12,662 nucleotides of DNA from NCBI GenBank assembly GCA_014384545.1, contig JACNFQ010000060.1, positions 1 through 12,662 of the forward strand. The letters run 5' to 3'. This DNA is from a bacterium (GTDB taxonomy: Bacteria; UBP7; UBA6624). Made by a program: the position numbers and the translations under genes. The notes beneath the pieces were generated by a model, which was not told where the DNA came from, did no database searches, and saw only the letters and a list, made by a program, of their open reading frames with translations. Below are positions 2,781 through 10,080 of the stretch, in pieces (the stretch's first letter is position 1; each line of letters opens with the position of its first letter).

Positions 2781-2989
2781 TCAAGCCCGGTTCCCTGGGT
2801 AACCTTGCCGAGGAGAGTTCACTGGGGTGGAGCATCGCTATCGCTGTGGGCACAGGGATTTTCGTGGGAATGTGGGTAGATAACCAATGGGAGGTTGAAC
2901 CTTGGGGTTTGATTGGCGGGTTTCTTTGGGGGATAGGGGGGGCAAGCCGTCTTCTCATCCGTGCACAAAAGAGGCTGGATGAGAAGTGA
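2765..2989 (+). CDS. atpZ: AtpZ-type small membrane protein of the ATP synthase operon
   Basis: About 74 residues with two predicted membrane helices: LGWSIAIAVGTGIFVGMWVD and, after a short loop, a Gly-rich segment PWGLIGGFLWGIGGASRLL. The layout and the LGW...G.W.D...PWG.IGG pattern match the AtpZ/F0F1-ATPase subunit family found just upstream of atpB, whose members have been linked to Mg2+/Ca2+ transport and to assembly of the synthase in alkaliphilic Bacillus. I chose the GTG at 2765 because it gives the family-length protein and a short overlap with the preceding gene. An in-frame ATG at 2714 would add 17 unlikely residues inside the upstream gene. The stop overlaps the next start (GTGA). 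There is no clear ribosome site, so translation probably depends on coupling. Confidence 0.75.
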   Translation: MAKKIVKPGSLGNLAEESSLGWSIAIAVGTGIFVGMWVDNQWEVEPWGLIGGFLWGIGGASRLLIRAQKRLDEK

Positions 2990-3264
2990 ACGTTCTCCAG
3001 GTTTTTTATGGGCTTTTGGCGGGGGGAGTGGCGTTTGGGGCTTGGATTCCTCTAAAGAGCATACTTCTAAAGAAAAAAGCGGACCCAAAGGAAGGGAGTA
3101 AGAGCGATGTGGTGGGACAGATTGGACGGGTAAGCATGCTCCATTTCTTGGTAGTGGGTGGTATGATATGGGCTTTGAAAACCCACTTGGCAACACCGTC
3201 CGGCATTGTCGGGTTTGGCATAGGAACTGTGCTGGGGCTTTCTCTTCTTTCGCAATCGAAATGA
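2986..3264 (+). CDS. atpI: ATP synthase subunit I-like membrane protein
   Basis: A 92-residue, strongly hydrophobic protein with three likely membrane segments (about 4-24, 48-66 and 70-88), separated by a Lys-rich loop (LLKKKADPKEGSK). Sequence alone is only weakly diagnostic. Position between atpZ and atpB, size and hydrophobicity fit ATP synthase protein I, which helps assemble the c-ring and is not part of the mature enzyme. Shorter than the usual 115-130 residues, it may lack one helix. The GTG start overlaps the atpZ stop (GTGA), and its own TGA overlaps the atpB start (ATGA), so the three are likely translated in relay. Another small membrane protein function cannot be excluded. Confidence 0.6.
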   Translation: MNVLQVFYGLLAGGVAFGAWIPLKSILLKKKADPKEGSKSDVVGQIGRVSMLHFLVVGGMIWALKTHLATPSGIVGFGIGTVLGLSLLSQSK

Positions 3265-4325
3265 CGCTCTGGAAGTTACCTCCCGACAGAGATTCTCCTT
3301 CTGGAGAAGGTGGGGGGAATGTGGAACACGACCACAAGGAAGAACAGACGGATGCAATGCCCCATGAACAAAGTGAGCACCATCAAGATGGAGAGGGGGA
3401 GCATGGAACTGCGGATGGAGACCATGGGGGCGAACACGAAGGGTGCCACCACGATGATTTCAATGGGAATGGTGCGCCCGATGGTCTTCTCAATGTCTTT
3501 AACTGGAAAGGGTTGTTGGGTTCGGAGGGGTTTCATACGACCCAAGAGGAAAACCTCCCTAGTTTTTGGCGTTGTAGTGGGGTTCCTGGATCTACAGCGA
3601 TGGGGGAAGTCAATCTCACGATGGCTTTCAACACCTTCTTGGTGATTGGGATTTTGGTGCCCCTGTTTATTCGAGGAGGAAAGAGGCTTCAGGAGATTCC
3701 TGGACGCATCCAAGCCGCAGCCGAGTCTTGGGTCGAGATGTTGATTGGGTTCTTCCAGAGTTTTGCTGGAGAGCATGTGGGGCGAAAGTACGTGGGGTTA
3801 CTAGGTGCCTATTTCACCTTTATCTTGGCGCTGAACTTGTGGGGGTTGATTCCGGGATTTCATTCGCCCACAGCCAATATCAACACGACGTTGGGCTTTT
3901 CTGTCATCGCTATTATCGCTAGTTTGGTCATCGGTCTCAAAGAGTCTGGAGTTAGGCATATAGTTCATCATTGGATGGGCGAGCCTGATCCAAGGGATGG
4001 GATGGCTAAAGGTATTGGGGCTTTTCTCCTTCTTCCCTTAGAACTCATTGCCCAGTTTGCCAGAATGGTCTCTTTGGCATTACGGCTTTATGGGAATATC
4101 TTTGGGGGCGATGTCGTTATCGCTGTTTTCGTTGTGTTGCTTACTGATCTGGCCGTGTCAATCTACCTGCCGTTGCCGCTCCACCTTCCGGTGGTGTTGC
4201 TACACTTGATCGCTTCGGTGATTCAGGCGGTTGTTTTCACGGCTCTGCTTTCGGTTTATATTGCAGGGTTCTGTTCTCATCATGGGGACGACCATACCAG
4301 CCACGCGGAGAGCGTGGCGCACTAG
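3261..4325 (+). CDS. atpB: ATP synthase Fo subunit a with His/acidic N-terminal extension
   Basis: Forms the two proton half-channels beside the c-ring. Of 354 residues, about 115 precede the first membrane helix, much more than in the compact (about 220-270 residue) forms. Membrane helices lie near 119-137, 178-200, 205-226, 252-295 and 309-337. Key residues: SLALRLYGN with the essential Arg (R275, equivalent to E. coli R210), D284 at the E219 position, H315 and Q322 matching H245 and Q252, and NLWGLIPGF. Residues 22-66 are rich in His (10) and Asp/Glu (16), with the run CHHDD; the C-terminus is also His-rich (SHHGDDHTSH). The ATG at 3261 is chosen for its ATGA overlap with atpI. A GTG at 3321, after a G-rich run, is an alternative that would still keep the His-rich part. 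Confidence 0.95.
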   Translation: MTLWKLPPDRDSPSGEGGGNVEHDHKEEQTDAMPHEQSEHHQDGEGEHGTADGDHGGEHEGCHHDDFNGNGAPDGLLNVFNWKGLLGSEGFHTTQEENLPSFWRCSGVPGSTAMGEVNLTMAFNTFLVIGILVPLFIRGGKRLQEIPGRIQAAAESWVEMLIGFFQSFAGEHVGRKYVGLLGAYFTFILALNLWGLIPGFHSPTANINTTLGFSVIAIIASLVIGLKESGVRHIVHHWMGEPDPRDGMAKGIGAFLLLPLELIAQFARMVSLALRLYGNIFGGDVVIAVFVVLLTDLAVSIYLPLPLHLPVVLLHLIASVIQAVVFTALLSVYIAGFCSHHGDDHTSHAESVAH

Positions 4326-9423: not shown

Positions 9424-9424
<1 letters not shown>

Positions 9425-10080
9425 TGCACTTATTGGTCTTGACACCTCGTGGGCCCGTGATGGATGTGGAGGCAGACTCTATTATCTTGCCTTTAGAGTC
9501 GGGGTTCTTGGGTGTAAAGAAGGGACACCAACCGTTGGCGGGTATCGTGGTACCAGGCGGTCTTTTTCACCGGTCAAGCGGGGAAAAAGGGATCCATTTT
9601 GTTTCAGGGGGTGTCGTGGAAGTGAGTGAAGAGAGGGTCCTTATCTTGACAGATGCAGCCGAAGAGAAGGGTGAGATTGATCTGGGGCGGGCTGAGAAGG
9701 CGCTGGAACGAGCTACACTGCGGCTAAAACGACGGGAAGCGGGGCGGCTCCGACTGGAATCCGCTCTGAATAGAGCGTGGCGACAGCTGCGAGAAGAAGG
9801 TGTTGATAGGAAGCGCTTGCTACTCGATATGGATCGTGCCCTTGAGCGTGTTCCATGGGAAGGAGATGAGGGTGAAGAGGCTGCTCGTGCTCTAAAGGGG
9901 TTGCGCTCTACACTCTTGGATAAGGAAACAACAGTTGATGACCTTCGTGCGGCGATTGGACCCGCCATGGATGCGGTCCAATTGGCGGGTGTTAATGTAG
10001 CACGTGCCACATTGAGCCAAAAGCGGGCGCAAGCGCGCCTCCAAGTCGCTCGGGGCGAGGTGCTTGCTTCCCTCCTTTGA
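9424..10080 (+). CDS. atpC: ATP synthase F1 subunit epsilon with enlarged C-terminal helical domain
   Basis: The rotor-foot subunit that couples gamma to the c-ring and can inhibit ATP hydrolysis. Residues 1-82 form the usual beta-sandwich (LVLTPRGPVMD, GHQPLAGIVVPG, VSGGVVEVSEERVLILTDAAE). The IDLGRA at 85-90 fits the I/LDxxRA ATP-binding motif described for Bacillus PS3 epsilon. The protein is 218 residues against the usual 130-140: after AEKALERATLRLKRRE come some 85-90 extra, Arg/Leu/Glu-rich and mainly helical residues (about 105-195). They end in a segment (ARATLSQKRAQARLQVA) that resembles the normal last helix. The frame is open throughout and no frameshift is visible. The start is GTG sharing a base with the atpD stop. 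The 3' end overlaps murA by 17 nt. Confidence 0.92.

Follow-up and report, generated by a model that had tools for sequence, protein, structure and literature searches.

A rare, long ATP synthase epsilon subunit in a UBP7 bacterium with a C-terminal domain probably enlarged by amplification of a 21-residue helix unit

The atpC gene in the window, by which we mean the whole stretch of 12,662 nucleotides of DNA analysed here, encodes an ATP synthase epsilon subunit of 218 residues, as compared to the usual length of about 125-150 residues. We consider it probable that this protein is an ATP-sensing epsilon in whose C-terminal domain (CTD) a 63-nt segment was amplified in tandem and in frame, so that two helix units became six, and that a predicted lobe at the tip of the domain would hinder the swing of the regulatory brake. 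What is new here is that the insert looks like a multiplied epsilon helix, and that the same repeat is in concerted evolution in a sister genus.

The atpC gene and its 84-residue insert

The window represents a single contig in the draft genome (1.39 Mb, 78.8% complete) of one uncultured bacterium from the candidate phylum UBP7. It contains pyk, a GDP-mannose dehydratase gene, atpI, a small unknown gene, the series atpB-E-F-H-A-G-D-C, murA and a gene of the CofD/YvcK family. It was compared with two further genomes of the phylum, PBAU01000005.1 (bacterium SP4379) and DLTY01000043.1 (bacterium UBP7_UBA7824), which belong to the same family as the window and to a different genus. From the dehydratase gene through to the CofD/YvcK gene, all three UBP7 genomes are arranged identically, and atpC is the last gene of the atp operon, directly after atpD, in the window as well as in the relatives. 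In the window, the GTG start of atpC overlaps the stop codon of atpD and opens a single unbroken frame of 218 codons.

The N-terminal beta-sandwich scores 55.6 bits against PF02823 (cut-off 27), and the protein as a whole exceeds the curated cut-off of the NCBI equivalog TIGR01216 (Table 1). The match to PF00401, the two-helix CTD, reaches 18.3 bits and stays below the cut-off of 24.6. A two-helix CTD is usual in epsilon subunits and not universal, and many of them are devoid of it. Since the features that define an epsilon are present, this shortfall marks a departure in the variable part of the protein. A previous reading of this DNA, made from the sequence alone, had described an AtpC of 218 residues with a normal beta-sandwich and a normal IDxxRA motif, and this description holds, with PF02823 covering residues 1-79 and IDLGRA located at residues 85-90. 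In its beta-sandwich, its place after atpD, the IDxxRA motif, the arginines of the ATP site and the first and last CTD helix the protein resembles other bacterial epsilon subunits (TIGR01216; PF02823 plus PF00401; e.g. that of Bacillus PS3, 2e5y). It differs from them in having six units instead of two, a CTD of 134 instead of about 50 residues, which makes the brake arm about 2.7 times as long as normal, and a predicted four-helix lobe.

AtpC of both relatives, encoded at the same operon position, is 134 residues long. The window's protein is 84 residues longer, and the whole excess lies in the C-terminal helical domain, where the insert is best bounded as residues 106-189 (nt 9739-9990). The sequence-only reading had placed an insertion of about 85-90 residues at 9736-10008; the insertion is confirmed, and its size and limits are slightly corrected. 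It had also called the arm Arg-rich, which applies to the insert with its 12 Arg in 84 residues; overall the insert is not basic, as 15 Lys/Arg stand against 17 Asp/Glu. Gamma aligns with the gamma subunits of the relatives over 287 residues at 60% identity and is unchanged in length. No length change matching the insert was found in gamma, alpha or beta as compared to the relatives, and no other ATP synthase subunit is comparably altered. A search for a second copy of the insert in the three UBP7 genomes (E <= 10) and a comparison with the PDB sequences yielded no match. Pfam matches to PKHD_C and DNA_ligase_OB in this region lie below the cut-off and were rejected.

The codon use of the insert is gene-like: it scores 0.253 per codon, with the beginning of atpC and the neighbouring genes at 0.145-0.236, and none of the five alternative frames reaches its score. 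Thus, the coding signal is found in the atpC frame only, and nothing points to a frameshift or to a fusion with another ORF, which had been named beforehand as a possible trivial explanation. An antisense ORF at 9567-10010 was rejected by its non-coding codon score. That an assembly artefact or a frameshift joining a separate ORF produced the long form is hardly credible and largely refuted: it is true that the form comes from one draft genome of the above completeness, but it lies in a single open frame with the coding signal in that frame only, its extra length is in register, and the operon is conserved on both sides of atpC, with a normal murA downstream.

Long epsilon subunits are rare, and the present one is known from one draft genome; uniqueness is not claimed. 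In a survey of 389 genomes of at least 90% completeness, 281 had a match to TIGR01216, and among the matches listed, the better-scoring ones, all cases in long frames were of normal epsilon length. Two surveys with PF02823, in which all matches were listed, gave a match in 138 of 183 and in 103 of 142 genomes, respectively; the sets overlap and comprise about 170 different genomes. Each frame of at least about 161 residues was read or was already known. Counted from the start of the match to the stop codon, none except that of the window was above 151 residues, and no other epsilon in these roughly 170 genomes was longer than about 155, on which grounds we call the long form rare. Long epsilon-bearing open frames elsewhere were upstream read-through or ordinary frames, with an epsilon proper of 84-151 residues. 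A search for other long epsilons yielded only the two relatives among genome contigs and nothing among viral contigs. In the open-access literature, no long or repeat-expanded epsilon was found, and searches for UBP7 returned mostly yeast and plant gene names and one mention of the phylum in a review. The length is thus not that of a widely known variant, the other trivial explanation that had been considered at the outset.

Repeat units of 21 residues and their origin

The excess of 84 residues equals exactly 4 x 21, and from residue 85 onwards the CTD can be divided into six units of 21 residues and a tail of eight residues, GEVLASLL (Table 1). The sequences of units 1 to 6 are IDLGRAEKALERATLRLKRRE, AGRLRLESALNRAWRQLREEG, VDRKRLLLDMDRALERVPWEG, DEGEEAARALKGLRSTLLDKE, TTVDDLRAAIGPAMDAVQLAG and VNVARATLSQKRAQARLQVAR. 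Within the unit, hydrophobic residues occupy positions 6, 10, 13 and 17, and Arg positions 5, 12 and 16. Unit 6 and the tail align with helix 2 and the tail of the relatives, including V208, G211, E212 and L214.

Table 1. Location of atpC and of the parts of its product in the window
Feature	Position (nt)	Strand	Evidence
atpC, ATP synthase epsilon subunit, 218 aa	9424..10080	+	ORF; TIGR01216 69.2 bits vs 67.25
N-terminal beta-sandwich domain, residues 1-79	9424..9660	+	PF02823 E 5.4e-15; strands in AF2 model
Helix unit 1, residues 85-105, canonical helix 1 with IDLGRA ATP-site motif (residues 85-90)	9676..9738	+	BLOSUM score 52 over 21 residues vs relatives' helix 1
Probable extra helix unit 2, residues 106-126	9739..9801	+	In-register match to helix unit; shuffle p 0.0002, heptad-preserving p 0.017
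Probable extra helix unit 3, residues 127-147	9802..9864	+	Shuffle p 0.0002, heptad-preserving p 0.047; predicted helix 129-141
Probable extra helix unit 4, residues 148-168	9865..9927	+	Shuffle p 0.008, heptad-preserving p 0.019; predicted helix 147-165
Putative extra unit 5, residues 169-189, degenerate	9928..9990	+	Length and place fit; own match not significant (p 0.14); predicted helical from residue 171
Helix unit 6, residues 190-210, canonical helix 2 with R194, R201, R205	9991..10053	+	Score 42 vs relatives' helix 2
C-terminal tail GEVLASLL, residues 211-218	10054..10077	+	Aligns with relatives' GEFLNVVK

In a scan of periods from 14 to 31, a period of 21 gave the highest signal (z 7.15), a period of 14 gave 4.3, and all others remained below 1.5. 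Lags of 21, 42 and 63 exceed most other multiples of 7, and some signal is present at lags 7 and 14. The four inserted units were furthermore scored in all registers against a reference that combines the first helix of the window's protein with the relatives' helix units; the in-register score was 39.4, and the next best of the 20 other registers scored -5.8. For the whole insert, heptad-preserving shuffles gave p 0.002 and permuted 7-residue blocks p 0.0036. Units 2, 3 and 4 are each significant against the helix unit, unit 5 alone is not. A 21-residue spacing combined with a similarity above the heptad background is found for units 1, 2, 3, 4 and 6, and not for unit 5 alone. The insert most likely consists of four more copies of the 21-residue epsilon helix unit and not of foreign sequence. 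The sequence-only reading, correct about the lengthened hairpin, had missed these likely copies.

An unrelated helical segment between helix 1 and helix 2, with a 21-residue register resulting from coincidence and generic coiled-coil (heptad) periodicity, would fit the unrecognisable unit 5 and the signal at lags 7 and 14, and a length that is a multiple of 21 would by itself occur by chance in about 1 of 21 cases. This explanation appears quite improbable to us, as the similarity exceeds that of heptad-preserving shuffles and of 7-residue block permutations, and the insert is without a match elsewhere in the three UBP7 genomes or in the PDB sequences. Alternatively, residues 1-123 might form a complete epsilon in which unit 2 serves as helix 2, and the remaining 95 or so residues would be a new extension at the C-terminus. 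HMMER and BLAST matches stop at residues 118-123, which corresponds to a whole normal epsilon, and unit 2 keeps R110 and R117. However, helix 2 and the tail of the relatives fit unit 6 and its tail better than unit 2 (score 42 as compared to 17), both R201 and R205 are present in unit 6 whereas unit 2 has Q121, and AlphaFold2 (AF2) gives residues 87-124 as one helix without a hairpin turn. We therefore regard a complete epsilon with an extension as unlikely; under a repeat expansion, the descriptions as extension and as insertion would in any case be partly equivalent.

The AtpC proteins of the relatives share with that of the window the phylum, the gene order, 42% identity over the common part, the 21-residue spacing of the helices and the tail; they differ in having 134 residues with two units that are near-identical in DNA, whereas the six units of the window are diverged. 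The DNA of the two helices is a direct repeat with a period of 63 nt in both relatives. Compared over 14 codons within a genome, its copies agree at 42/42 nt in one relative and at 41/42 nt in the other. Between the species, the same repeats agree at 32-33 of 42 nt, and every difference is synonymous. Because of this near-identity within each genome and the synonymous differences between species, the two helix copies evidently evolve together, i.e. they undergo concerted evolution inside an ATP synthase gene. Recombination between the repeat copies would be the simplest cause, and it would imply that repeat recombination occurs in the UBP7 lineage. Unequal recombination between such copies would add or remove whole units of 21 residues. 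The repeat pair sits at L058:3253-3378 and L059:3253-3378.

None of 42 further epsilons examined shows such near-identity of its helix DNA, their DNA identity ranging from 0.24 to 0.67. On the protein level, helix 1 resembles helix 2 across epsilons, with a mean z of 3.0 for 44 proteins including the two relatives and a usual spacing of 22-26 residues. A pattern common to both helices in most of the 42 epsilons from other bacteria is hDxxRAxxAxxRAxxRL. The normal epsilon hairpin looks as if it had been derived by duplication of one helix, and this general resemblance would make a multiplication of the helix unit natural.

For the window, we propose an in-frame tandem amplification of a 63-nt repeat, encoding a 21-residue helix of three heptads, from two to six units. 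The steps that can be read from the sequences themselves are the insertion, its register, the similarity of units 2-4 and the fact that the corresponding repeat evolves in concert in the sister genus. A recent duplication is ruled out, as no DNA repeat remains in the CTD. At third codon positions, the insert has no lag-21 similarity, the copies having decayed to background, and the expansion would thus be old. As, in addition, unit 5 is unrecognisable, we infer the exact number of duplications. That unit 5 is not individually recognisable and that the long form occurs in one genome only count against an amplification.

The additional units might also have been produced by repeat recombination in a small-genome lineage and merely tolerated, folded out of the way and without any effect. 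Such a neutral growth would be in line with the recombination active in the sister genus and with the different unit counts of the genera. We nevertheless find it rather doubtful, since the open frame, the gene-like codon use and the helix pattern were kept despite the third-position decay of the DNA repeats, which suggests that the insert is maintained by selection.

Predicted fold and the regulatory brake

The structure of epsilon alone was predicted with AF2, as the sequence-only reading had proposed. For the CTD alone, a single-sequence prediction gave a pLDDT of 88.8 and a pTM of 0.74, with helices at residues 87-124, 129-141, 147-165 and 171-217. The whole protein, predicted together with the two relatives and with low confidence (pLDDT 63.4), showed the beta-sandwich and helices at residues 87-123, 129-142, 147-165 and 171-217. 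The CTD is thus predicted to fold into long-short-short-long helices, in which the usual hairpin is lengthened and bears a four-helix bundle at its end. That the hairpin is longer while its first and last helices look normal had been expected from the sequence, and it is supported by this predicted fold and by the match of unit 6 and the tail to the relatives. We read the model as a normal hairpin of units 1 and 6 that continues into units 2 and 5; units 3 and 4 would pack against these and thereby contribute the second pair of helices to the four-helix lobe. The predicted helix 87-124 crosses the junction of units 1 and 2, so that the units are not always separate helices.

The best structural alignments of the CTD are to four-helix bundles on a two-helix stalk, the top one being NarQ (6xyn; Z 11.9, 135 residues, 3.2 A). 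For bundles, a Z below about 13 may reflect no more than a common arrangement of helices. Helical bundles are easily predicted. The Foldseek match to NarQ-type sensor domains has E > 0.05, and a Z of 11.9 is in the range of common helical arrangements. These domains are alike in the up-down order of long-short-short-long helices, a common fold, and are without sequence relation to the window's CTD or sign of a common function. It is unlikely that the arm is simply a longer rod extending upwards along gamma, because a straight helix of 134 residues would measure about 200 A (1.5 A per residue) and far exceed the F1 head. The suggestions of a longer reach along gamma, a different mechanism of inhibition or a new partner found no support, the predicted arm being a folded lobe, gamma unchanged and the insert not net basic.

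The epsilon brake is usually pictured as a fixed two-helix arm that folds down or swings up. In Bacillus PS3, epsilon holds ATP by E83, D89, R92, R99, R122 and R126 (PMC5436830), which map to E80, D86, R89, R96, R201 and R205 of the window's protein. Since these residues are kept in units 1 and 6, an ATP pocket could still form between the two units. We propose that units 1 and 6 remain a normal hairpin with the ATP-sensing residues, which would still dock on the beta-sandwich and respond to ATP, while units 2-5 would prolong the hairpin and fold into the predicted four-helix lobe at its tip. As helix 2 moves to enter the alpha3beta3 cavity, the 84-residue lobe would lie between the helices, at or below the cavity entrance, and by its bulk would hinder the swing of helix 2 into the cavity. 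A lobe of this kind would most likely hinder the inhibitory 'up' state, and ATP hydrolysis would be inhibited less strongly, or its inhibition would be exerted externally, at the lower face of the head. As the commonest outcome we expect a brake that is hindered or weakened; its main rival is a brake acting from outside. The epsilon of Paracoccus denitrificans is likewise over-long, yet is reported to be non-inhibitory; unlike here, only nine extra residues are involved, and these are C-terminal (PMC9317440).

A stronger or differently placed brake, in which the lobe wedges gamma against the lower face of alpha3beta3 or touches the peripheral stalk and so locks rotation in one direction, seems to us less than likely. 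It would be in keeping with the normal mode of inhibition, as in E. coli the CTD of epsilon engages alpha, beta and gamma and locks the enzyme (PMC6449082), and with a CTD that is retained and enlarged rather than lost and keeps its ATP-site residues. On the other hand, gamma is of unchanged length and alpha and beta are of normal length, and no partner feature was seen.

If the arm is indeed made of repeat units that can be multiplied, with the same repeats in concerted evolution in a sister genus, it would depart from the fixed two-helix picture. The protein would then be a natural test of how much can be accommodated between the two helices without loss of the up state, and it would bear on the question whether inhibition needs full insertion into the cavity. 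More tentatively, the brake of this lineage might be a modular helix array whose number of units changes by repeat recombination, with the arm as a new rotor domain that alters when or how rotation is blocked, or that docks a further protein.

Other observations at the locus

The gene at 2986-3264, between atpI and atpB, encodes a small hydrophobic protein without a Pfam match, and in the relatives an ORF of comparable size occupies the corresponding place. The N-terminus of subunit a (atpB, window 3318-3620) contains an acidic, His-rich stretch in all three UBP7 genomes, which in the atpB of the relatives (L056, L057) is a short tandem repeat of the HHGDD type. Metal binding by this His-rich N-terminus appears possible.
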